From assembly GCA_002710685.1 (NCBI GenBank), contig PALD01000066.1:186001-250000 (forward strand): DNA of 64,000 bases, read 5' to 3'. Position numbers and translations under genes: made by a program. The notes beneath the pieces are model-generated. The model was not told the DNA's origin. It was given only the letters and a program-made list of their open reading frames with translations, and ran no database searches. Source of the DNA: Cytophagaceae bacterium. GTDB lineage: Bacteria > Bacteroidota > Bacteroidia > Flavobacteriales > Flavobacteriaceae. This document shows positions 6,573 to 17,445 of the stretch, one piece after another; the first letter of the stretch is position 1; every line of letters begins with the position of its first letter.

Positions 6573-6714
6573 GTTATTTAACTTGAGCTTTGGTTAAAAG
6601 CGAAAGTTCGTACTTCACTTTCTGAAAAATTTATTCTAAATCTCTTTAAGAAAGTAATGGAACACTTTTTATGCGACGACGTAGGAGGAAAGCATAATGT
6701 GTGTGGAGTGGAAT
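6573..6714 (+). repeat. L1: left-end block of the Gabija cassette
   Basis: This block is repeated at 13017-13163 (L2), also upstream of a defence-type gene in the same orientation. Both copies begin GTTAT[T/G]TAACTTGAGCTTTGG and then differ moderately. They become nearly identical again over roughly 60 bp from about 6657 to 6711, including GCGACGACGTAGGAGG and GCATAATGTGTGTGGA. The first 35 bases can fold as AACTT-GA-GCTTT / AAAGC-GA-AAGTT, with opposing GA pairs. An ATG in GCATAATG after AGGAGG opens a tiny frame (8 codons here, 4 in L2). No longer conserved protein is encoded. Just downstream, an ATTACG/CGTAAT dyad lies at 6734-6751. The rest of 6360-6856 shows no gene. Confidence 0.8.
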
Positions 6715-6856
6715 TGTACATAACTTGTTGAAAATTACGAAAAACCGTAATCAAATAATTGTTAATTTTTGGTATTTTTAAACTCTCCCTTATTATAAGC
6801 AAATATTCTATTCCAAGTTTTCATCCATAAAAGGCAACTTTTTAATTAAAATTTAT

Positions 6857-8971
6857 ATGCATATAAGTTCACTATCTATAAGGAATTTTAGAAATTTCTA
6901 CAGGTCAAAATTCATCTTAAAAAAAGGTATAAATACTATTTTAGGAGAAAACGGTTCAGGTAAAACAAATTTATTTTTCGCTTTACGTGTCTTAATCGAT
7001 GACAAACTTCCAAGATACATAAGATTTAATGAGTCAGACTTTAACCGAGGTCTTGGAGAATGGGCTGGACATTGGATAATTCTATCTGTTACTTTTGATG
7101 AACTGGATGCAAGTGAGGAAGCCCAAGTATTGGCGGTACAATCTTCTGGAGATATGGATGGTAATAAAAAAACTGGAAGTTACTCGGTTTACTTTAGACC
7201 AAAATATCAGTTTAGAAAAGAACTTTACGATTATTCACAAACCGCAGGTAAAAGTGTAGTTGGCCTTCAGCTTTTTCTTAATAAACTTACGATTGATGAC
7301 TATGAAACCTCTTATTTGTGCAGAGGCTCTGGAGATTTCAGCGATGATAATACGTATAAAAAGTATGTTGGTGACTTTGATGCTGTTGAATTCCCAAATC
7401 CAGATGATAAAGAAGAATTGATTTTTGGTACATTTTTGCCAAGAGAAATAAGCGTACATAACGAAGTCTCTTGTACGTTCATAAAAGCATTACGGGATGT
7501 TGAAAGTGATTTGCGTTCCTATTCTACCAATCCATTGATTAATTTGTTGCGGGGTAAAGAAAAAACTATCGAAGTTTCAAAAAAAACAGACATCATTGAT
7601 AGTGTAAACAAACTGAACGACCAAATTAGTTCTCTCAAAGAAGTAAAAGATGTAAAAGATGGAATTGATAAAAGCATTAAGGAAGCTGTGGGCACTACTT
7701 ATGGGCCTAACATTGATGTGAAATCAGAGCTTCCCAATGATATGGAAAAACTATTGCAATCACTCAAACTTTGGGTTGGCGACCCAGATGAGGAAGGTTA
7801 TATGGGTAAAATATGGGAATTGAGTTTGGGAGGTGCAAATATGATTTACCTCTCACTAAAGCTATTGGAGTACGAAAAAATTAGAACGGATAGAATTGCA
7901 AATTTTCTTCTCATAGAAGAACCGGAAGCACATATTCATACGCATATTCAAAAAACACTGTTTGATAATGTGCAAACAAATAAAACACAGGTTATTATTT
8001 CAACGCACTCTACTCATATTTCATCTGTAAGTCGCATAAGTTCAGTAAATATTTTAAGTAGAGGAAATAAGCAAACTTTGGTATATCAACCATCTAACAA
8101 TCTTGATGATGAATACATAACAAGAGCCGAAAGGTACTTGGATGCCATTAGAGGCAACTTGCTTTTCGCGAAAGGAGTTGTCTTGGTTGAAGGCGATGCA
8201 GAACAAATTCTCATTCCTCAAATGTTCAAAAAGGTCTTTGGAATTTCACTCGATGAAATTGGAGTAAGTCTTGTAAATATTGGAAGTACGGGCTTTAAAA
8301 ATGTCGCAAGACTTTTCCATAAAGATAGAATTCAGAAAAACTGCGCCATACTAACTGACTTGGATGCCAGCATAGTTAATTTACCTGTAAATGAAGCTGA
8401 TGATACTTCTTATCAAAAGCATTGTAGAGCTTCGCAAATTAGTGGAGCTGAAAGAAAAAAAGAATTAGATAAATTTTGTGATAAAAACGACTTTTTGATT
8501 CCATTTTACTCAAAATACACATTTGAAGTTGACTTTATTTTGAACGGGAATAGTCACGAATACATACAATCACTTACAGAAATTTTCAAACAGCAAGCAG
8601 CCATTGATGCTTCAAAGAAAAAGTTAGAAGATAAATCAGTTTCGATTGCTGGTGTAGAAGTTTTACGATTGGCTGATAAAAAAGGTAAAGGTTGGTTAGC
8701 GTTGGTTGTTGCAGATAATTTAGTTTACAATACTTATATTCCTGAATATATTTTAAAAGCAGTTGCGTTTGCATCTTCACATTTAAATAATGCCTCTAAA
8801 GCTAAAACCGCTAAATACAGGTTACGAAAAATTAGTCGTAATAAAAATGATAGTTATTACGATACAGCTACAAAAATTAGTTTTAAGAATAAAGAAGACC
8901 ACCAGGTTATTGATGACTATATAGCCAACTTCCCTAACGACCAGTTTACTAAATTTTTATCGTTTATATGA
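6857..8971 (+). CDS. gajA: Gabija-type GajA: OLD-like AAA ATPase/TOPRIM nuclease
   Basis: 704 aa. The N-terminal ABC/SMC-like ATPase shows Walker A GENGSGKTN at residues 30-38, a signature-like ELSLGGAN, Walker B LLIEEPEAH (~352) and the STHSTH switch (~383). A TOPRIM domain follows, with LVEGDAEQ (~442) and LTDLDAS (~499) supplying the acidic metal ligands of OLD-family nucleases. In Gabija systems GajA is a DNA nuclease held in check by nucleotides and activated during phage infection together with GajB. The next gene starts inside its stop (ATGA), confirming the pair. It is longer than the Bacillus prototype (about 580 aa). Base composition is clearly more AT-rich than the flanking sulfatase gene, supporting transfer. 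Confidence 0.9.
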   Translation: MHISSLSIRNFRNFYRSKFILKKGINTILGENGSGKTNLFFALRVLIDDKLPRYIRFNESDFNRGLGEWAGHWIILSVTFDELDASEEAQVLAVQSSGDMDGNKKTGSYSVYFRPKYQFRKELYDYSQTAGKSVVGLQLFLNKLTIDDYETSYLCRGSGDFSDDNTYKKYVGDFDAVEFPNPDDKEELIFGTFLPREISVHNEVSCTFIKALRDVESDLRSYSTNPLINLLRGKEKTIEVSKKTDIIDSVNKLNDQISSLKEVKDVKDGIDKSIKEAVGTTYGPNIDVKSELPNDMEKLLQSLKLWVGDPDEEGYMGKIWELSLGGANMIYLSLKLLEYEKIRTDRIANFLLIEEPEAHIHTHIQKTLFDNVQTNKTQVIISTHSTHISSVSRISSVNILSRGNKQTLVYQPSNNLDDEYITRAERYLDAIRGNLLFAKGVVLVEGDAEQILIPQMFKKVFGISLDEIGVSLVNIGSTGFKNVARLFHKDRIQKNCAILTDLDASIVNLPVNEADDTSYQKHCRASQISGAERKKELDKFCDKNDFLIPFYSKYTFEVDFILNGNSHEYIQSLTEIFKQQAAIDASKKKLEDKSVSIAGVEVLRLADKKGKGWLALVVADNLVYNTYIPEYILKAVAFASSHLNNASKAKTAKYRLRKISRNKNDSYYDTATKISFKNKEDHQVIDDYIANFPNDQFTKFLSFI

Positions 8972-10743
8972 TTTTAGATACTTTAAGCGACCAACAAAAA
9001 GATGCTGTTACTAAAGACGGAAATGTACTTCTTACCGCTTGCCCAGGAAGTGGAAAAACTCGGGTCATAATCCATAAGCTCGCTTATGCTCTAAAAAATA
9101 TTGATGTAAATAGTAAACAAAGGATTGTTGCTCTAACTTTTACTGTAAGGGCTTCTGAAGAAATATATCGCAGATTAAACGCAATGGGAATTAATAGTAA
9201 TCGGGTTTGGTCGGGTACTTTGCATTCCTTTTGTCTCGAATGGATTATTAAACCCTATTCCTGCTATTTACCTGAACTTGAAAATGGATACTTAATTGCA
9301 GATGAAACTTATGCTTCGGATATCATTGATGAACTTAAGGAAAAACATAAATTAAAACCTATTGACCCAATTAATTTTAGGTTCAACCGGGACGGCACAT
9401 TTGCTGAACCGAAATCTATTCAAAAAAGAGTGCTTAAAGAATATCACGAAAGATTACAAGCAGAGAAGTTAATTGATTTTGAATTGCTACTTTTCTATTC
9501 ATACAAACTCTTAATCACGCATCCAAAAATTAAAAAAACACTGTCCAACATTTTTAGCCTTATTTGTGTTGATGAATATCAAGACACACAAGATTTGCTT
9601 TATGCAATTATTTCTTCCATTATAACAACTGGGGAAGGTAATTCAAATCTGTTTTTGGTTGGAGATACTGACCAGGCAATTTATGCTTCTTTGGGTGGTG
9701 TTGCCAAAAGTTTGGAAGAAATACAGAAGGAGTTAAAAACTTTACCTATTCAACAACTTACGCTTTCCGGAAACTATAGATCCACCCAAAGAATTATTGA
9801 TTTTTATTCCATATTTCAGACCAACCCAATTAAAATAGAAGCTATTGACACTAACAAAGACACTAATAGTATTATAACCTACAATAACACCATCAACAAA
9901 GGGTATTTGGTAGATGAAATAGCGAGACTTATAGAGTACAGCTTGAATAATGGAATTCCAGAAGATGAAATTTGCGTATTGGTTCCGCAATGGTGGTTAA
10001 TAACTACCATCACAAAGCAATTGAGAGCTAAACTACCGAAAGTAAATTTTGATGCATCAGGTTTAGCACCGATGTCAAAAAATCGAAACAACATTTGGTA
10101 TAAATTATCGAGATTGTTCTTGACACAGCCAAAACCAAAAATATATTCATTGAGATATAAGTGGTGTTCTGAAGTAATTGAAAATTTTAAAGAACACACT
10201 AATACTGAATTCAGCGAACAATATCGAACAGAGCGAAATGTATTGAAATTGATTAACTCGATAACGTCAGATGAAACCGAAGGCATCGATTATCTCAATG
10301 ACTGTTTTGACCAGTTTTTAGATGCTGTTGGGATTGACCAAAATGTATACGTACAACTTCTTATAAATAGGAAGACTTTTTTTGATGTAATAAAGAGTCG
10401 TCTTGAAGACCCAACGTTTCAAGTTCCAAGTGATATTGCATCCTTTATGAGTTTTTATAGAGAAATGTCAGGTGTTGTCATCAACACTTGCGTAGGTGTC
10501 AAAGGAGAAGAATTTGAAACTGTTATTGCCTATGGCTTGCTAAATGGGTATATCCCACATTGGAATGATATTTTCAATGGAGACCCTGTAGCCGCTTCAA
10601 AAAAACTACTTTATGTTATTTGTTCAAGAGCCAAAACCAATTTACACTTGATATCAGAAACTGGCAGACAAACCGCCAAAGGTACCCCATTGGTAATTAC
10701 TCCAGAATTGCAAAATCTTGATTTTGAATTTGATGAAATATAA
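8968..10743 (+). CDS. gajB: Gabija-type GajB: UvrD/PcrA-like helicase
   Basis: 591 aa SF1A helicase. Motifs seen are Q/motif I LSDQQKDAV and ACPGSGKTR (~24-32), motif II CVDEYQDTQ (~200), motif III VGDTDQAIYASLGG (~231), motif IV-like LSGNYRST (~265) and a late CVGVKGEEFETV (~508). Translation is coupled to gajA through a four-base ATGA overlap. In characterised Gabija systems GajB is an ATPase that associates with the GajA tetramer and helps trigger DNA cleavage. DEYQ in motif II replaces the usual DEFQ or DEAQ, which is common in GajB-like proteins. The R1 hairpin follows within 20 bases of the stop, so it may also shape the 3' end of this transcript. Confidence 0.9.
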   Translation: MILDTLSDQQKDAVTKDGNVLLTACPGSGKTRVIIHKLAYALKNIDVNSKQRIVALTFTVRASEEIYRRLNAMGINSNRVWSGTLHSFCLEWIIKPYSCYLPELENGYLIADETYASDIIDELKEKHKLKPIDPINFRFNRDGTFAEPKSIQKRVLKEYHERLQAEKLIDFELLLFYSYKLLITHPKIKKTLSNIFSLICVDEYQDTQDLLYAIISSIITTGEGNSNLFLVGDTDQAIYASLGGVAKSLEEIQKELKTLPIQQLTLSGNYRSTQRIIDFYSIFQTNPIKIEAIDTNKDTNSIITYNNTINKGYLVDEIARLIEYSLNNGIPEDEICVLVPQWWLITTITKQLRAKLPKVNFDASGLAPMSKNRNNIWYKLSRLFLTQPKPKIYSLRYKWCSEVIENFKEHTNTEFSEQYRTERNVLKLINSITSDETEGIDYLNDCFDQFLDAVGIDQNVYVQLLINRKTFFDVIKSRLEDPTFQVPSDIASFMSFYREMSGVVINTCVGVKGEEFETVIAYGLLNGYIPHWNDIFNGDPVAASKKLLYVICSRAKTNLHLISETGRQTAKGTPLVITPELQNLDFEFDEI

Positions 10744-10757
10744 GGTTAATGTAAAGC

Positions 10758-10940
10758 GGCCTCAGAAAACTTTGGTTAAAACAATAGGGGAGTTGAGCGT
10801 TAAGCACTTTAGGGTGTCAGCACTAGATAATCTTAACTCGATAAATGTTTAATGGCAGTTAAAGGCAGTCTTAATAGGTTTCAATCTTTCCTAAAGTGTA
10901 GCGAGCGACCCGTACATTGTTTCCAAAGGTTTCTGAAGCC
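10758..10940 (+). repeat. R1: long imperfect inverted repeat ending the Gabija cassette
   Basis: The left arm 10758-10813 (starts GGCCTCAGAAAACTTTGG, ends CACTTTAGG) is complementary to the right arm 10890-10940 (starts CCTAAAGTG, ends CCAAAGGTTTCTGAAGCC). The central ~76 nt hold smaller dyads such as CTTAACT/AGTTAAAG. A homologous hairpin of nearly the same size follows the KAP module at 16866-17047. Differences between the copies are partly compensatory (see findings), so the fold rather than just the sequence is conserved. It could be a structured RNA at the 3' end of the transcript or a single-stranded-DNA recombination hairpin. Confidence 0.82.
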
Positions 10941-10977
10941 TTGATTTTTTGTTTCTTTTTCATCAAGGAAAAAGAAA
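10939..10977 (+). repeat. R1 tail: interleaved stems after the hairpin
   Basis: Two stems alternate here. Stem A is CCTTGAT (10939) with ATCAAGG (10962). Stem B is TTTCTTTTTC (10952) with GAAAAAGAAA (10968). The order A-B-A'-B' is that of an H-type pseudoknot, or of two alternative hairpins. The equivalent tail follows R2 at 17047-17081 with different but still paired bases. No gene is present between here and the 270-aa gene at 11284. Confidence 0.55.
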
Positions 10978-11047
10978 GGATAGTGAACCTTTCCAAGGAT
11001 TTAATAAATAAACCTATTCCCGAGCCTTCAGGAATATTTTTTCCCCA

Positions 11048-11063
11048 CTTTGAGCAGAAATCA
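11048..11063 (+). repeat. Direct repeat, left copy (CTTTGAGCAGAAATCA)
   Basis: Matches 12591-12606 at 15 of 16 bases, and looser similarity continues on the 3' side of both copies (GAAA-GG ... TTT ... TAGC). The pair brackets the orphan 270-aa gene, suggesting the ends of an insertion or a duplicated cassette terminus. Confidence 0.45.
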
Positions 11064-11093
11064 GACCATAAAAAAAGAGGTCAGAGCGTAAAG

Positions 11094-11115
11094 AAAAGGT
11101 CTAGTAGACCTTTTT
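11094..11115 (+). terminator. Hairpin AAAAGGTCTA-G-TAGACCTTTT
   Basis: Ten-base perfect arms around one G, followed by further T. It is terminator-like in both orientations and lies upstream of the orphan gene. Confidence 0.5.
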
Positions 11116-11232
11116 AGCGATTGGGCCAGCGGGCGCAGGGGAAAACCATAATTCCACATTCAATCTAACGTTCCTATCAACAAGCAACAAGCAGCGAACA
11201 ACTACTAACCATCAACCAAAAACAAATAATAC

Positions 11233-11261
11233 TTGACAAAACCCTGAAAATCAATTATATT
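11233..11261 (+). promoter_or_regulatory. Promoter-like TTGACA-N17-TATATT
   Basis: TTGACA at 11233 and TATATT at 11256, 17 bases apart, with the ATG of the next gene 22 bases further on. It resembles a generic sigma-70 promoter more than the Bacteroidota TTG/TAnnTTTG type. It would be an insulated promoter for the 270-aa gene. Confidence 0.45.
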
Positions 11262-11283
11262 AGTAACCCAAAAACCCAACCAC

Positions 11284-12096
11284 ATGGCAAAGCCAATATC
11301 AAACATAGGTGCATTTACAGGTACCATAGATGGAATTACCTATTATACGCTAAATGGTAAAAGGGTCTGCAGAAAAGCATCGGCACCCACTAGAGATCAA
11401 ATTCAACAGGACCCGCGTTTTGCCGCAGTAAAGAAAAACAATAGCGAATTTGGTGGCGCTTCCACCTATGCTAGGGCCATAAGGTCGGGCCTGGGGAAGT
11501 ATGTCGACACCTTTAAAGACCACAGTTTTCATAGTAGGTTGACCAGCTGTTGCCAGAAAATCATCAAAAAGGGAAGGGGCGAACACGGTCAGCGTACCAT
11601 CAATGTGCTTAACTATCCTGAGGCGTTGATAGGATTCCCACTCAATACTAAAAATGCCATTTTGGAAAAACTGGCTTTTCTCCCTGAACTACAAACTACA
11701 GTAAAAGGGATTAAAATCTCATGGTCAGGGATGGGTAAGATTAATCTGGATAAACCACCCAACAATGCGAGTCATTATGTGCTCATTGCCTTGATCAACA
11801 GTGTTCCTGGTTATGCTTACCACAAGCGTGATAAAAAATATATCCCCACGCGTACCTTACCTCGTGATGCCATGTCAGCCGCTGCATCTCCACCCTTGAA
11901 ACTTTCAGGAATATCCAGGGATATCGAGATTTTCCTGCCCTTTCCTAAAGATGTAAGGATTCAAGAAGAGAATCATGAAAATCCCGATAAAATGGCACAC
12001 ACCATATGGCTGGGAATTCAATATGGCCAACAAATAAATGCTGTGTTTCATCCCTTAGAAACCGGAAAGTCCATGCAATGCCTTGCAGTATGTTAA
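11284..12096 (+). CDS. Orphan 270-aa Bacteroidota protein of unknown function
   Basis: I do not recognise a functional domain. The N-terminus MAKPISNIGAFTGTIDGITY, followed by a Lys/Arg-rich KRVCRKASAPTRDQIQQDPRF and SEFGGASTYARAIRSGL, follows a pattern I associate with a widespread Bacteroidota family of stand-alone hypothetical proteins (G-IGGI-YYK--GK----RK ... DP-F---R-N--EFG-A). That family link is from memory. The protein is basic, with no signal peptide, no membrane segment and several non-paired cysteines. Base composition is less AT-rich than the defence genes on both sides, and the gene sits between short direct repeats (11048 and 12591). It looks like an independent insertion into the cassette. 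It has its own promoter-like sequence upstream. Confidence 0.7.
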   Translation: MAKPISNIGAFTGTIDGITYYTLNGKRVCRKASAPTRDQIQQDPRFAAVKKNNSEFGGASTYARAIRSGLGKYVDTFKDHSFHSRLTSCCQKIIKKGRGEHGQRTINVLNYPEALIGFPLNTKNAILEKLAFLPELQTTVKGIKISWSGMGKINLDKPPNNASHYVLIALINSVPGYAYHKRDKKYIPTRTLPRDAMSAAASPPLKLSGISRDIEIFLPFPKDVRIQEENHENPDKMAHTIWLGIQYGQQINAVFHPLETGKSMQCLAVC

Positions 12097-12128
12097 GGCA
12101 CCATTTCCCAGGACTAAAAATTCAATAA

Positions 12129-12161
12129 GTTCACCCGTGGTTCACTCGGGGTTCACCCGTA
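12129..12161. repeat. Three tandem 11-mers GTTCAC[C/T]CG[T/G][G/A]
   Basis: GTTCACCCGTG, GTTCACTCGGG and GTTCACCCGTA stand back to back 33 bases after the orphan gene. They are too short and too few for CRISPR and could be iterons or binding sites. Confidence 0.55.
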
Positions 12162-12294
12162 CTTACCCTGGGGTTAAGCCGCACCTAGTTGCAGGTATAT
12201 CCCGTCTATAAACCACTCTAACCCAAATCAGGCTTCGTTAAGAAACTGGGCACTCCATTTACCAATCAAACCACAACAACAATCAACAAAAAGC

Positions 12295-12339
12295 TACCGA
12301 CCAACCTGCGTGCCAGTGTAAAGAAAGCATGGGTCGGTA
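12295..12339. repeat. Dyad TACCGACC ... GGTCGGTA
   Basis: Perfect eight-base arms with a 29-base loop downstream of the orphan gene. The remaining sequence 12340-12590 contains no gene I can support, only a direct repeat AGCACAGCGA at about 12470-12500. Confidence 0.4.
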
Positions 12340-12590
12340 TTGCGCTAAATAGATAGATTATCCTTCGGAAGGAAACATGCGTATTCATAAGGTAAACCGG
12401 GCCTACTATTCATATACGTAGTAAAACAAGCAAAAGTCGCAGCCCTGGAAGTAGAGGCTTGCATCCCACGAGCACAGCGAGAGGAATGCATAGCACAGCG
12501 AATTCTCGCACGCATGATAAAAAGCTTTTCTTACAATTCATGAAAATAAAAATAAGCCTAGTCCCGAGACTAAGGGATTATTTCTTCACG

Positions 12591-12606
12591 CTTTGAGCGG
12601 AAATCA
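12591..12606 (+). repeat. Direct repeat, right copy (CTTTGAGCGGAAATCA)
   Basis: Partner of 11048-11063. It marks the likely right edge of the ~1.5-kb insert carrying the 270-aa gene. The cassette tail (T1) resumes after it. Confidence 0.45.
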
Positions 12607-12720
12607 ATCAAGAAAATAGAAAGGTTTTTCTTTGCTAAGCATCAAACGAAGAACATAGTTCAATTCAGGCAGAAAATTTTTGCTTTTGGCTAGGGCAAGT
12701 GAGGGCAAATTGTTTTGTAA

Positions 12721-13022
12721 ATCATCGAGCGTTTGCGCACGGCAATTAAATATAACGACAAAATTAGGAGTACAAATAATTTATCCACGCGTTGGCGTAC
12801 AGGTATCGCAATTGACTATGACCTACGTGTCGAATAAAATTATCCTGTAGATGATTTTATTTGATGGCCAAATAAAGCGTTAGAATTAATAGCAGCATTT
12901 CTTTTGACATATAATCGGTATCGTTTTAGTATTAAAGCGCTACAACTGATTTTATATCAAATAGAACAACAATACGCAACTTACTATCTAATAGCATTTG
13001 TGCTATAATGTTCCGCGTTATG
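12721..13022. other. T1: cassette junction with ATAACG ... CGTTAT arms
   Basis: The 37-base block 12721-12757 (ATCATCGAGCG ... ATAACG) aligns without gaps to 17328-17364 at about 26 of 37 positions. The far end, CATTTGTGCTATAATG then CGTTATGTAA, resembles 17414-17440 (CATTTGTACTATAATTTACATTATGTAA). ATAACG at 12752 is complementary to CGTTAT at 13016. The layout AAC ... GTT recalls integron attC core sites, but the arm spacing is long and no integrase gene is visible. No coding sequence is found in 12607-13297. Confidence 0.5.
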
Positions 13023-13163
13023 TAACTTGAGCTTTGGATAAAAGCGAAAGTTGTTACTACAGTTTCTTTAAAAAATTTATTCTAAAAAGTTTCTTCTACA
13101 ATGTGAATGGAACACTTTTTATGCGACGACGTAGGAGGGAAGCATAATGTGTGTGGAATGAAT
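13017..13163 (+). repeat. L2: left-end block of the KAP cassette
   Basis: Second copy of L1 (6573-6714) in the same orientation, starting GTTATGTAACTTGAGCTTTGG. It keeps the AACTT-GA-GCTTT / AAAGC-GA-AAGTT fold and the near-identical segment around GCGACGACGTAGGAGG (13106-13160). It lies 135 bp before the KAP gene, where L1 lies 143 bp before gajA, so distance to the cargo start is also kept. Confidence 0.8.
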
Positions 13164-13197
13164 AGTAAAGTGACTTATTGTCATATTTGTACTATTC
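13160..13197. promoter_or_regulatory. Operator-like dyad GAATAGTA ... TACTATTC
   Basis: Perfect eight-base arms enclose an inner GTGAC / GTCAT dyad. It is located between L2 and the KAP start codon, so it could bind a regulator or fold in the leader. Confidence 0.4.
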
Positions 13198-13297
13198 CAT
13201 CAATAAATATGTCAGTTATTTATTTCAAAAAGAGCAAATTGCAAAATGGTACAACTCTTGATTTAATAAAATTTTAACGTTTTGAAAATTCAATTTT

Positions 13298-16200
13298 ATG
13301 AGTGAACCATCCAAAAAACCAAACTACATTTCTAGCTCACCATCAGGAGAAGATTTATTTGAAGGTAAATCTCATGAAAAGATTTCTAACACAATTTTCG
13401 AATTAATTAAAGAAAAATCTTTACCAAATAATGTTGTTGGTATTGAAGGAAAATGGGGTTCAGGAAAATCAAATGTTGTAAGTATTCTAAACAAAAAATT
13501 TAATAAAATAAGTTCAGACTATTTCTTTTTCACATATGATGCTTGGGGTCATCAAGAGGATTTAACCAGACGCACATTTTTAGAAGAATTAATATCTTCA
13601 TTAAAAGGGGAAAAAAAGTTCAAAGGTAATATAGATTGGACACAAGAGTTAAACAAACTACTCGCAAAAAAATCAACGAAGAATACAACTAAATTTCCAA
13701 AAATCAAGTTTTACTGGATACTAATAATGGCTTCAATTTTATTGTTTTCATTTTTAAATGTGCTTTATGATGATTTTTTGATTAAGAGCAATTTTATACC
13801 AAAATATAACTTACAATACCTAAAATTATTTTTATCAAAGTATCTATTACCAATTATTGTTTTTGTTTGGGGTTTAGTCGAATTAAGAAAAGAATATAAA
13901 GCTTTTGATGATAAGAAAGAAACCAAAGATTTTGATTATAAAGAAAGGCTTAAAAGACTCTTGTATATTTTTAGTGGTTCAGATTTAGAATCAGAAGAAC
14001 TAGAACATACACTTGAAGATGAACCAACTGTAAAGAGTTTTAAAGAATATTTTGAAAATATTACGCATGACTTAAAATCAGATGGTTTAATAATTGTCTT
14101 TGATAATATGGATAGATTATCAAAAAGTGATAAAGTTTTATCCCTTTGGTCATCAATACACACTTTTTTTGCTGAAGAAAAAATTGATAATGTTTGGGTA
14201 ATAATCCCTTATGACAAAGAACATTTAGCTAAACATTTTGATGAAAATGATGATAATAAAGTAGATAATTTTATTGGAAAAACGTTTTCAACAATTTTTA
14301 GAATTTCTCCACCAGTTTTATCAGATTGGAAGAAGTTCTTTGAGTTGAAATTTAAAGAAGCTTTTCATGACATTATCAATGATAATGATATAGATTTTAT
14401 ATCTTCTTTATATGAACTTATCACGGATATAAATACTAAAAGACCTCGTGATATAATAACATTCATCAACAATCTTGTCTCTCTATATTTACAGCATAAT
14501 AGCTCAATTGACATAAAATATTTAGCATTATTTATTTTAAGAAAAAAGGAAATTTTAAATAATCCATTGATTTCTATAGCGGGCAAACATTTTTTAAAGG
14601 AAGAAAAACATATGTTTCAAGCTGAATCTGAACTAGAAGAAAATTTAGCTGCTATTGTTTATAATGTTGATAAAGAAAAATCAAGTGAAGTATTATTAAC
14701 AAATAGTATTGATGACATATTCTTTAAAGCCAAATTCGAAGCTCTAAAAGATGTTAAAAAACATAGTGAGTTTAAGACTTATTTTGGTAATACAGTTAAC
14801 AAGAGTAATTTTTCAAATTCAAGACCTGAAAACACAGCCAAAATATTTGAAGAAGTTAAAGATGTTGTATCTGGACAAGCATTAAAATCATATTGGGAAA
14901 GATTTGCTAATAATATTGACAAAAGACCAAAGGAAGAATTTGTAAAACTTTTAGATTGGCATAGAAGTATAATTATTAACACTTCAAGAAATACAGCAAA
15001 AGGACTAGCCGATAAAATTGTTTATGAATCTCAAAGTGAGTTTGAAAAATCATCAGATAGCAGTAAATATTATAATACAATTTATGAGTTAATTAAATTT
15101 TTAAACAGCGAATCTAAAAAATTTAAAACTACAATAAATAGAGTGAAATTTTCTCCAAAAAACTTTGTGGAGTATTTAGATGATTTAAATAAATTATTTA
15201 AAAAAGGGGAGTGCACATATGCAGATATGAAAATATTTGCTGATTCAGATGAGCTTAATGAATATTTTATAAATCATGAAAATGGGGTTGTAGAAGAATT
15301 ATATACTTATATACACGTCATTGAATATTTAATTTCTACAGATAACTCCTTTAAGTTTAATAAAGTTCAAGAAACAATTGATACTCAATTGAAAGCATTT
15401 GCCCATACTGATGCTAAAAAAATATCAAAATTAATAGAGATTAATAAGGTTCTTAACGGTAAGAGTAAATTAAAATTAATACCTCAAGCGATAGGCAATA
15501 ATTTTCTAAATAGCAATGGAGCTAAAACCGATAATCCATATTTTGATATTGTAGCTAATCAGATAGCCCATTTAATGACTATTGCACCACAAAGCCCTAC
15601 ATTAACAAAAGAACTGAATAAAATCGAGAATGCTTCTAAAGTTGCTGAAATCATACAATACTATGTTACTTATGGTGATTTACTTAAAATAGTAATTGAT
15701 AAGGGTAGGGTTTATCCTTTAGTAAATGAAGTCATTAAAATTCTTACTACAGATTACTTTGGGTTTAGCCAATCAATGTCAAGTAAATGGGTATTTGAGA
15801 ACCTTGATAAAGTTAAGTCACAATTATTTAAAGATGATTTCAAAGTTTTTTTAACTCAATTTGATAGATGGAAAGAGCAGTTTAAAGTTGAAGAAATATC
15901 TCCAGTTTTAGATTTAAGAAGTGAAATTTTAAAGGAAACTTTTGATAAAGAAAATCTTGAATTTTTATCAATAAAATTAATATATGATTTATTAATCACT
16001 GAATTTAAAGAGACTAGTAAAGATGTTTGGTTAGAGAATTTTAATACTGAATCTAATTTTAATTTTGCTTTTTCTGGGCTAGTTGAGAATGACTTATTAG
16101 ATAAGAAAATAACAAGAAGTAAAGTTTTTATGGAAGCATATGATGAATATTTTACTTCAATAGCTAAAAATGAAGTAGCTATTCCGGAAAATGAAGATTT

Positions 16201-16627
16201 TTGGAATAATTTACTAAACGAAGATTATTTAGATAAGAGAAAGTTAAGTAGGATTTATGACGATATTTTAGATTTACTAATAGACTACCCAGAGTTGAGC
16301 ATAGAGCAAATAAAATTCTTTGCACTTGGCATATTTGAATATTCGACTATAACTATGACCAAAGCAGATAGCGTATGTAGAAAAATAATTCTCCATTTAA
16401 ATGATGATAGTGAAATATTTCATCAGATAATTGAAACTTATGGTGATAAAATAATTGAGATTATTAATGCTTCACAGGGAAAATACAATCAAGATTTATC
16501 AGAAATGTTTAACCTAAAGTTGGATGGAGAAACAATTGATAAACGTTTAATTGAAAATATTTTTAACAAAACGAAGTTAGAGATACCAAAAGCTAAACCT
16601 GAAGATGATGAGGAAACAGCTTCTTAA
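13298..16627 (+). CDS. KAP-family P-loop NTPase, probable defence protein
   Basis: 1109 aa. Residues ~48-59 hold Walker A GIEGKWGSGKSN, followed by the KAP signature YDAWGHQEDLTRRTFLEEL. Two predicted membrane segments (FYWILIMASILLFSFLNVLY at ~137 and YLLPIIVFVWGLVEL at ~185) are inserted between Walker A and the Walker B IIVFDNMDRL (~263). This insertion is the defining oddity of KAP NTPases such as PifA. TKRPRDIITFINNLV (~380) supplies the sensor/arginine region. The remaining ~700 residues are helical, acidic and unrecognised, possibly a sensor or effector. PifA-type KAP proteins block T7 in F-plasmid hosts. A defence role here rests on the family and on sharing the cassette architecture with Gabija. 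Strongly AT-rich. Confidence 0.85.
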   Translation: MSEPSKKPNYISSSPSGEDLFEGKSHEKISNTIFELIKEKSLPNNVVGIEGKWGSGKSNVVSILNKKFNKISSDYFFFTYDAWGHQEDLTRRTFLEELISSLKGEKKFKGNIDWTQELNKLLAKKSTKNTTKFPKIKFYWILIMASILLFSFLNVLYDDFLIKSNFIPKYNLQYLKLFLSKYLLPIIVFVWGLVELRKEYKAFDDKKETKDFDYKERLKRLLYIFSGSDLESEELEHTLEDEPTVKSFKEYFENITHDLKSDGLIIVFDNMDRLSKSDKVLSLWSSIHTFFAEEKIDNVWVIIPYDKEHLAKHFDENDDNKVDNFIGKTFSTIFRISPPVLSDWKKFFELKFKEAFHDIINDNDIDFISSLYELITDINTKRPRDIITFINNLVSLYLQHNSSIDIKYLALFILRKKEILNNPLISIAGKHFLKEEKHMFQAESELEENLAAIVYNVDKEKSSEVLLTNSIDDIFFKAKFEALKDVKKHSEFKTYFGNTVNKSNFSNSRPENTAKIFEEVKDVVSGQALKSYWERFANNIDKRPKEEFVKLLDWHRSIIINTSRNTAKGLADKIVYESQSEFEKSSDSSKYYNTIYELIKFLNSESKKFKTTINRVKFSPKNFVEYLDDLNKLFKKGECTYADMKIFADSDELNEYFINHENGVVEELYTYIHVIEYLISTDNSFKFNKVQETIDTQLKAFAHTDAKKISKLIEINKVLNGKSKLKLIPQAIGNNFLNSNGAKTDNPYFDIVANQIAHLMTIAPQSPTLTKELNKIENASKVAEIIQYYVTYGDLLKIVIDKGRVYPLVNEVIKILTTDYFGFSQSMSSKWVFENLDKVKSQLFKDDFKVFLTQFDRWKEQFKVEEISPVLDLRSEILKETFDKENLEFLSIKLIYDLLITEFKETSKDVWLENFNTESNFNFAFSGLVENDLLDKKITRSKVFMEAYDEYFTSIAKNEVAIPENEDFWNNLLNEDYLDKRKLSRIYDDILDLLIDYPELSIEQIKFFALGIFEYSTITMTKADSVCRKIILHLNDDSEIFHQIIETYGDKIIEIINASQGKYNQDLSEMFNLKLDGETIDKRLIENIFNKTKLEIPKAKPEDDEETAS

Positions 16628-16652
16628 AATTTGAGGCATACACAATTGAATT

Positions 16653-16850
16653 ATGAAAAATACTGAAATTGATAATTATCTAGGAATTATAAAGGCTGAA
16701 ATGATAGCTGAATATATAGAAACGATTGACAGAGCATTTATTAAAGAAGTAGTATTAAGAGCTGGTGGAAAAGTTGCCGATGTAGATACTATCCTCAAAC
16801 ATGATGCTGTTAAAGAGATTGATGATGATATGTTCTACATTAAAAAATAG
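16653..16850 (+). CDS. 65-aa partner protein of the KAP NTPase
   Basis: The sequence starts MKNTEIDNYLGIIKAEMIAE and ends DDDMFYIKK. It is small, acidic and mostly helical, with no recognisable domain and no signal peptide. It starts 25 bases after the KAP stop, in the same direction and the same AT-rich base composition, and R2 begins 15 bases after its stop. That position, inside the L-R boundaries, argues it belongs to the KAP module as accessory or antitoxin-like subunit. No database family recognised. Confidence 0.7.
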   Translation: MKNTEIDNYLGIIKAEMIAEYIETIDRAFIKEVVLRAGGKVADVDTILKHDAVKEIDDDMFYIKK

Positions 16851-16865
16851 TTACAATGTTTTTTT

Positions 16866-17047
16866 GGCCTCATAAAATTTTGGTCAAAACAATAGGAGAA
16901 ATGAGCGTCCATATTTTAGGGGTTTAGTTTTACAGTTTCTTAAGAGTTTCTATTATATAAGGGATTTCAAAGCTATCTTAACAAGTTATAATGTTTCCTA
17001 AAATATAGCGAATGAGCCGTTAATTGTTTCCAAAATTATATTCAGCC
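16866..17047 (+). repeat. R2: long imperfect inverted repeat ending the KAP cassette
   Basis: The left arm 16866-16920 (GGCCTCATAAAATTTTGG ... ATATTTTAGG) pairs with the right arm 16997-17047 (CCTAAAATAT ... CCAAAATTATATTCAGCC). It is the homologue of R1, one base shorter overall. Where R1 has CACTTTAGG/CCTAAAGTG, R2 has TATTTTAGG/CCTAAAATA. Where R1 has CTTTGG/CCAAAG, R2 has TTTTGG/CCAAAA. Pairing is therefore preserved while sequence drifts. AAAACAAT on the left and ATTGTTTCC on the right are invariant in both copies. Confidence 0.82.
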
Positions 17048-17081
17048 TTGAATTTTTGTTTCTTTTGTTTCAAGACAAAAG
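17047..17081 (+). repeat. R2 tail: interleaved stems
   Basis: CTTGAA (17047) with TTCAAG (17069), and CTTTTGT (17062) with ACAAAAG (17075), arranged as in the R1 tail. No gene is present from here to 17572. Confidence 0.5.
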
Positions 17082-17327
17082 ATAATGAAACACGAAAAAG
17101 AAGATTGATTGAAGTTCTATATATAACAAGTGCATAGAATTTTATTTTTCTTAAAATTTATGCTCTTGTGGCAAGCTGCTGAGAATTGTCTAAAATTTTT
17201 TATTACGTACATTTTATCGAATACGCGATTTTTAATAAGAGTAAAAAGGTTAGCTTTTATTTTGGCGTTGGCAAGCGTTGGATAATTGTGTGTAAAATAA
17301 ATTGCCAGAGCAATTTGATTTTATAAA

Positions 17328-17445
17328 ACAATCGAGCGCTTGGTAGCGGCTATTTTACATAACGGCTAATTATAGCTATCAAATGGACTTCTCTCATAAA
17401 ATACCAATGATAACATTTGTACTATAATTTACATTATGTAAAATA
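17328..17445. other. T2: hairpin junction at the right edge of the island
   Basis: TATTTTACATAA (17351-17362) and TTATGTAAAATA (17434-17445) are perfect 12-base inverted arms. Further pairs lie inside: TAATTATAG with CTATAATTTA, then CAAATG (17380) with CATTTG (17414), leaving a ~28-base apical loop. The preceding 17328-17364 block aligns with T1. This is an attC-like folded site of about 95 bp. Beyond it, composition returns towards that of the flanking genes. Confidence 0.55.

Follow-up and report, generated by a model that had tools for sequence, protein, structure and literature searches.

The window analyzed here is a stretch of 64,000 nt from a flavobacterial assembly (contig PALD01000066.1, positions 186,001 to 250,000), in which two gene modules stand in tandem within framing blocks of the same kind and before a 28-bp site that we identify as the chromosomal recombination site dif, at which bacteria resolve joined chromosomes (Table 1). 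The first module is the defence system Gabija, with GajA (AAA/TOPRIM; PADLOC E-value 3e-286) adjoining GajB (UvrD-like; 2.5e-226), and the second is a KAP P-loop NTPase (Pfam E-value 7.1e-24) with a 65-aa partner open reading frame (ORF) that has no family match. Both modules had been named in this way by an earlier note on the same DNA, and the names were upheld. Each module is part of a unit with the order L (a left-end block of ~150 bp), cargo, R (a hairpin of ~183 nt), T (a right-end block of ~275 bp) and loop, after which comes either a further L or the array end.

Table 1. Positions of the cassette parts and of the array end within the window
Feature	Position	Strand	Basis and remarks
L1, left-end block of cassette 1	6573..6714	+	similarity to L2; XerC-arm side eroded
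gajA (Gabija), cargo of cassette 1	6857..8971	+	PADLOC match
gajB (Gabija helicase), cargo of cassette 1	8968..10743	+	PADLOC match
R1, covarying hairpin	10757..10940	+	similarity to R2, covariation
270-aa ORF between R1 and T1	11284..12096	+	no Pfam, PADLOC or PHROGs match
T1, degenerate right-end block	12657..12779	+	similarity to T2, E 6e-7
L2 with attached dif-like half	12994..13161	+	XerC arm 12998-13008, 9-nt centre 13009-13017, XerD-like arm 13018-13028
KAP P-loop NTPase, 1109 aa, cargo of cassette 2	13298..16627	+	Pfam match
Small partner ORF, 65 aa, cassette 2	16653..16850	+	no Pfam, PADLOC or PHROGs match
R2, covarying hairpin	16865..17047	+	similarity to R1, covariation
T2, right-end block	17106..17382	+	ends in inverted dif-like half: XerD-like arm 17352-17362, 7-nt centre 17363-17369, XerC-like 17370-17383
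Loop between T-end and dif, terminal part of folded hairpin	17384..17416	+	
Chromosomal dif (identified from sequence)	17417..17444	+	XerC arm 17417-17427, 6-bp centre 17428-17433, XerD arm 17434-17444

The earlier note had described a shared left block before both modules and a shared hairpin close behind their cargo, and both were recovered here. L1 and L2 are 84–86% identical and stand 143 and 137 bp from the first gene, while R1 and R2 are 72–75% identical and start 14 and 15 bases past the last cargo ORF. The junction sequences T1 and T2, which had also been said to resemble each other, are indeed related; T2, however, is the full block and T1 a degenerate relative only. R had moreover been regarded as the right end by itself, and this had to be revised, the right end being made up of R, T and an inverted dif half. 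At the left end, L2 extends ~24 nt further left and ends in a dif-like half site. A 36-base motif taken from L1 and L2 was found in both places, nowhere else in the window and in none of 100 shuffles at up to three mismatches; in the whole genome L was found only at the L1 and L2 places and R only at the R1 and R2 places. The exact dif site was matched at up to three mismatches in one of 100 window shuffles. An Rfam scan of the window at gathering thresholds gave no match.

In an alignment of 37 R sequences, 10 of the 22 consensus pairs are changed on both sides with pairing kept. When the letters of the 3′ side were shuffled, such pairs numbered 4.7 on average and never 10 in 500 shuffles; four of five measures were unreached in the same 500, and the number of further pair types was not raised (14 versus a shuffle mean of 14.5). 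The last hairpin of L likewise has four pairs with compensatory changes on both sides. Within the genus of genome G110 the strand relative to dif is constant for R (24/24) and T (39/39), and in 9 of 85 closed units all ORFs of at least 150 aa run against L. We therefore assign the blocks to the element rather than to its cargo; R may have an additional role as an RNA. The tail behind R (10941-10985 and 17048-17090, of the type GCCTTGATTTTTTGTTTC..) is a separate common repeat that has several close copies in some genomes. Five congeners hold, at this same locus, relatives of the 270-aa ORF that separates R1 from T1 (43–51% identity).

dif and the placement of the arrays

The 28-bp site consists of the XerC arm TTGTACTATAA, a 6-bp centre and the XerD arm TTATGTAAAAT, and in congeners without L the same sequence, with small changes, stands at the position of the window's array end. 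We searched 149 related genomes for the core of this site with at most two mismatches and found it in 85, in 80 of them as a single site, with one match for the reversed control. In the genus of G110 it is present in 34 of 36 genomes; some of the genomes numbered with G and the named loci numbered with L are the same genome (for example, G110 and locus L271, Maribacter sedimenticola). In the closed genome G011 (one 4.24-Mb contig) the GC skew was sampled on either side of dif; it is positive in 9 of the 11 stretches that precede the site and negative in all nine that follow. Within the window the skew is mixed right of dif, and the skew argument therefore rests on G011. A published dif prediction lists 19 of 19 Bacteroidetes genomes as predicted (PMC3025954). 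Judged by sequence and setting, the site at the end of the array is the chromosomal dif.

Next, we analyzed where L occurs relative to dif. A genome-wide search gave 44 L matches, excluding three second fragments of counted L blocks and matches weaker than 6.1e-8, and including in the dif list one site with three mismatches (G074). Of these, 29 lie at most 40 kb from dif on the same contig, and all 29 share the orientation of dif and stand on its XerC side. The same agreement was observed for 16 of 16 L–dif pairs from 12 named loci of 8 kb. In the genus of G110, 27 of 32 dif regions hold L and all 63 L matches are on the dif strand; here 18 kb upstream and 1.5 kb downstream of dif were taken, which fixes the upstream position partly by construction and leaves the strand free. 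Among the dif regions with L, 24 of 54 hold two or more L copies. Insertion of the cassettes at dif is well supported.

The earlier note had also suggested a comparison with empty sites. One such site was found in G159, which holds dif without recognized L, R or T where G152 has an array of ~14 kb with two L units; the left flanks of the two genomes are 87.7% identical over 3.9 kb and the right flanks 82.6% over 1.2 kb.

Further conserved sequences were noticed around the arrays. Beside dif and upstream of it in G105, G031a, G024, g002 and g008 stands a second type of right end, a near-perfect hairpin (ACATAATn..GATATAA..TTATATC..ATTATGT) followed by a small GCGCTAT-like hairpin, which perhaps belongs to another family of dif elements. 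Between the last T and dif, six genomes (G017, G018a, G020, G036, G064 and G074) have a conserved block of ~100 bp with a second inverted dif-like half (GGGATATTTTACATAATA..); the window has no such block. Left of the first L in G152, G174, G179, G167 and G180 lies a small conserved gene, which by eye reads as a CDGSH-type protein, followed by the loop TGGACTTCTCTCATAAAA; this loop also precedes dif, both in the window and in G029.

Half sites, breakpoints and shared units

Both ends of a unit carry dif-like halves. The start of L consists of a XerC arm, a 9-nt centre (TGTTCTGCG) and the XerD-like TTATGTAA, and the end of T, read backwards, of a XerC-like arm, a 7-nt centre and TTATGTAAAATAG. 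The two halves are inverted and face each other, and neither has the 6-nt centre of dif; a duplex pattern of XerC and XerD arms around a 6-bp centre was matched in the window by dif itself only. The strand from the T-end to dif in the window folds with a z-score of −5.06.

The position of the breakpoint can be read from the loci G084 and L202, which have a 0.9-kb cassette in common through ..GAATTATAAT and then part, one running into the dif core and the other into the L that follows. This parting point coincides with the predicted XerC cut. Several matches between records start within a few bases of the L-start as well (L267/L355, L221/L356, L220/L373 and L204/L224), the first two of these being between Winogradskyella and the genus of G110. 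In four arrays located elsewhere than at dif, the end is formed by a good XerC arm plus a XerD-like arm in which 1–2 of 11 positions are mismatched; base shuffles of the flanks equal the XerD-like arm in 4, 42, 4 and 35 of 20000 cases. These ends are degenerate dif-like sites.

Units with 88–97% identity occur across species and genera. The unit common to G152 and G180 is 97.4% (3.75 kb) and 93.3% (1.7 kb) identical, and of the flanks only 40 bp align right of dif and 309 bp left. G110 and Zobellia russellii share 5.1 kb at 93.3% identity. In the congener G003 the same locus holds a KAP homologue with 91% protein identity versus 60% for the neighbouring transporter.

Distribution and cargo of the family

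The earlier note had proposed a cassette family with shared ends and swapped cargo, to be abandoned for a local duplication if L and R were confined to this locus or always surrounded the same genes. We found L in 34 of the 149 related genomes, from 34 different genera, around very different genes, and this test of the note's own therefore does not refute the cassette reading. A 22-base core of L occurs in at least 117 stretches of GTDB contigs. Going by title, the 80 matches listed are from flavobacteria, except one metagenome-assembled genome (MAG) of Pleomorphochaeta and a few MAGs titled to a higher rank only; the genera named are presumably all Flavobacteriaceae. In a class-wide draw (L at E-value 1e-6) 4 of 395 genomes have L, the genome of the window included, and all belong to the same family. 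The Pleomorphochaeta case, outside Flavobacteriaceae, is a 5.4-kb contig (L263) and perhaps a binning error. Across 155 L units, counted unmerged with some from the same genome twice, the unit length ranges from 0.6 to 12 kb.

The cargo comprises 288 non-identical proteins in 245 clusters (blastp 1e-10, 60% length overlap, proteins at least 98% identical merged); the first number is an undercount, 96 ORFs running against L having been left out, and the second may split distant relatives. The earlier note had supposed a family specific to defence, which does not hold. At 1e-12, PADLOC models were matched by 9 of the 30 large proteins tested, and thereby in 8 of the 29 cassettes sampled (one cassette contributed two proteins): methyltransferase or restriction in three cassettes, one of them also with PtuA, and PsyrT, PD-Lambda-5, Tmn, PDC-M65B and QatA, the last a weak match of 57 residues in L223. 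For the other 21 of the 29 cassettes the tested protein has no PADLOC match at this threshold. Pfam was run on 20 of these 21 proteins (L248 was left out) and at 1e-4 gave matches for 17, one below its curated cut-off, including three PF00144 serine hydrolases, S15, M1 and S8 peptidases, MMPL and MFS transporters, a radical SAM protein, a colicin D domain, an nSTAND NTPase and others. Ten proteins compared with PHROGs, five from the window and five from other cassettes, gave matches for GajA, GajB and one ATPase only, with no structural or integration family. The cargo is diverse and the family is not defence-specific.

Possible routes of integration and mobilization

No recombinase is carried by the array in the window. 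The genome has 16 places with a match to PF00589, of which only one is on the contig of the window, at 411-902 and thus >190 kb away; its XerD scores above the cut-off. The earlier note had left movement to a factor elsewhere or to a homing/folding mechanism, and the host XerC/XerD pair acting at dif fits the former as a candidate. We consider it probable that the two modules are gene cassettes without an integrase, integrated by the host Xer system at the replication-terminus site dif in a CTXphi-like manner. For CTXphi, attP1 and attP2 are described as inverted, with centres of 12 bp and 5–7 bp, and as folding in the single strand; only XerC catalyzes, and integration is irreversible (PMC4246890). 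By analogy, a cassette would be a circular single strand, in which the halves of T-end and L-start pair across the loop and form a hairpin in which an unpaired centre separates a XerC site from a XerD site, as in attP(+) of CTXphi. Host XerC would join this hairpin to dif. The L side would thereby be linked to the XerC arm already present, and to the right a functional dif would be restored with the XerC arm that the element brings. The next cassette would land at the rebuilt dif on the right of the array, and arrays would therefore grow at the dif side. The conservation of L, R and T would reflect a role in the element rather than in the cargo.

Such a model predicts a rebuilt dif after the T-end and loop, which matches dif at 17417-17444, and a shared cassette that changes after the XerC arm, which matches G084 and L202. 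Growth at the dif side is fitted by the order of decay: in 19 of 24 arrays it is the L closest to dif that has the higher score (p 0.004).

Several observations weigh against this explanation. The XerC-like protein of the genome falls below the curated cut-off. No dif match at two mismatches was found in 64 of the 149 relatives, and in the congener G007 the match lies away from the shared locus; 13 of the 44 L matches lie away from dif in dif-bearing genomes (some on short contigs) and two in a genome without a dif match. Of eight array regions away from dif only four have readable right ends, three being without a recognized T and one T running into another L. R was recognized in 17 and T in 27 of 80 named loci, many of which are cut short, and some arrays end in a different hairpin (G105, G031a). 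For L087/L211 and L209/L259 the shared stretch goes 45 and 107 bp past the L-start. The score of L depends only weakly on its distance when all 99 copies are taken (rho −0.14, p 0.16). Among the 56 junctions delimited by script, which are the ones that were folded, the XerD arms pair in 20 of 29 of the dif type (median z −2.4) and in 14 of 27 that lead to an L (median z −1.8), which makes folding support moderate. Of 267 cargo ORFs, 215 are on the L strand, as a promoter role for L would also give. Finally, no helper or phage for the cassettes was found in viral contigs, phages, plasmids or by way of Zot.

Among the rival explanations, double-stranded circles could use L-start or T-end as ordinary dif-like sites for recombination at dif, with no need of folding, as do VGJphi, TLCphi and the pdif modules of Acinetobacter. 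Placement and breakpoints fit any exchange that XerC begins, and dif-like sites in duplex form are indeed carried by elements of these bacteria, namely by a transposon-like element and by viral contigs that have a copy of dif (see below). However, the half sites have centres of 9 and 7 nt and stand inverted face to face, and the matching second half at the T-end would be left unused; we regard this route as unlikely. Plain homologous recombination, in which a hotspot at the terminus has L and R/T as its conserved flanks and exchanges its cargo through them after DNA uptake, is no better placed and if anything slightly less credible. L and R/T are long enough for exchange, and L203 and L272 are 94–97% alike upstream to the inner edge of L and then diverge. 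On the other hand, homologous recombination would leave unexplained that arrays near dif are one-sided and of one orientation (29/29), that the breakpoint falls on the XerC arm and that degenerate dif-like ends occur in arrays elsewhere.

If operons merely shared L as their promoter or leader and R as their terminator or as a regulatory RNA, nothing would have to be mobile. The compensatory changes in R and the excess of cargo ORFs on the L strand agree with such functions. As the whole story this is disfavoured by the units whose larger ORFs all run against L and by sharing between genera, with the L-start as the edge in several cases; the cargo, moreover, is not of defence only, and we consider the explanation very improbable. 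An integron or a cluster of attC sites lacking integron integrases (CALIN), with T-end/L-start junctions serving as attC sites, is the least credible and was rejected: the cassettes are in tandem, and the junctions are inverted repeats with a variable loop and R′′/R′-like boxes (ACATAAC/GTTATGT), but GTTATGT is one position off the attC consensus (RYYYAAC/GTTRRRY), the arrays abut dif, which integrons do not require, and no integron integrase (TIGR02249) passes the cut-off in the 149 genomes.

Returning to CTXphi-like integration, the units resemble integrative mobile elements exploiting Xer (IMEX) of the CTXphi type in their two inverted dif-like sites with non-canonical centres, exchange on the XerC side, integration at dif and tandem stacking (CTXphi features as described in PMC4246890). 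They differ in that no filamentous-phage gene was recognized in the scanned cargo, in their interchangeable cargo, in arrays of unrelated units, in the phylum and in the extra blocks L, R and T. Legionella LME-1 is described as a mobile element at dif near the terminus that uses host Xer (PMC9765430); unlike the stacked units of unrelated cargo found here, LME-1 is one element with a dif mimic. Integration by host Xer at dif is as such of an already known kind. The pdif (Xer) modules of Acinetobacter plasmids are similar in having cargo flanked by Xer sites and in being thought to be moved by host XerC/D. Their sites are canonical duplex XerC-6-XerD sites on plasmids, whereas the flavobacterial units are at chromosomal dif, with halves that are inverted and badly spaced. 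Sedentary chromosomal integrons also have tandem arrays of unrelated cassettes separated by imperfect hairpins; the arrays described here differ from them in lacking an integron integrase above the cut-off, in their multi-gene cassettes and in being anchored at dif.

In order to find a vehicle we searched viral contigs, where L and the T-end had no match and the small partner ORF no relative, and phages and plasmids, where the stretch from R through T to dif had no match. Zot had no match in the genome of the window or in the window's cargo. Among the 149 relatives 28 have Zot above the cut-off, one strongly (5.9e-41) and the rest at 2e-6 or weaker. An inovirus helper recognized by Zot was rejected, with this single strong match in 149 genomes and no listed place that by eye adjoins an array. 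Tentatively, and at less than even chance, the cassettes may be phagemid-like satellites without a phage or recombinase gene: a machine acting in trans would copy single-stranded circles between two L blocks, and XerC would bank the cassettes at dif. We guess that L could be an origin of replication or transfer and that R and T could be further single-strand signals for the helper. If such a helper worked by rolling circle from one L block to another, this would account for the presence of L beside unrelated cargo.

Other users of dif-like sites were observed. Direct dif-like copies with the centre TGTAAA border a repeated element in L382 (2267, 11210 and 18414) and in L383 (G107, G029). The element in L382 holds two adjacent tyrosine recombinase-like ORFs (293 and 313 aa, read by eye) and a 551-aa ORF, and appears to be transposon-like, with its own Xer-like pair and dif-like ends. 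An exact copy of dif lies in the IMG/VR contigs L385 (663-686) and L386 (4508-4531), and a third contig, L384, has one as well. L385 and L386 carry terminase- and portal-like ORFs as judged by eye, and tailed flavophages may therefore also use host Xer.

Arrays of interchangeable cassettes that stand at dif and have no integrase were not described for Bacteroidota in the literature searched by title and start of abstract, with preprints and most subscription papers outside the reach of the search. If true, our explanation would place a second system of cassette arrays next to the integron, with recombinases borrowed from the dimer resolution of the cell, and under the satellite model in particular dif in Flavobacteriaceae would correspond to an integron without an integrase, with defence and general cargo. 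The explanation makes testable how cassettes without a recombinase of their own are mobilized, and the neighbourhood of dif gives a fixed place in which to seek new genes for defence and other accessory functions across a large bacterial family.

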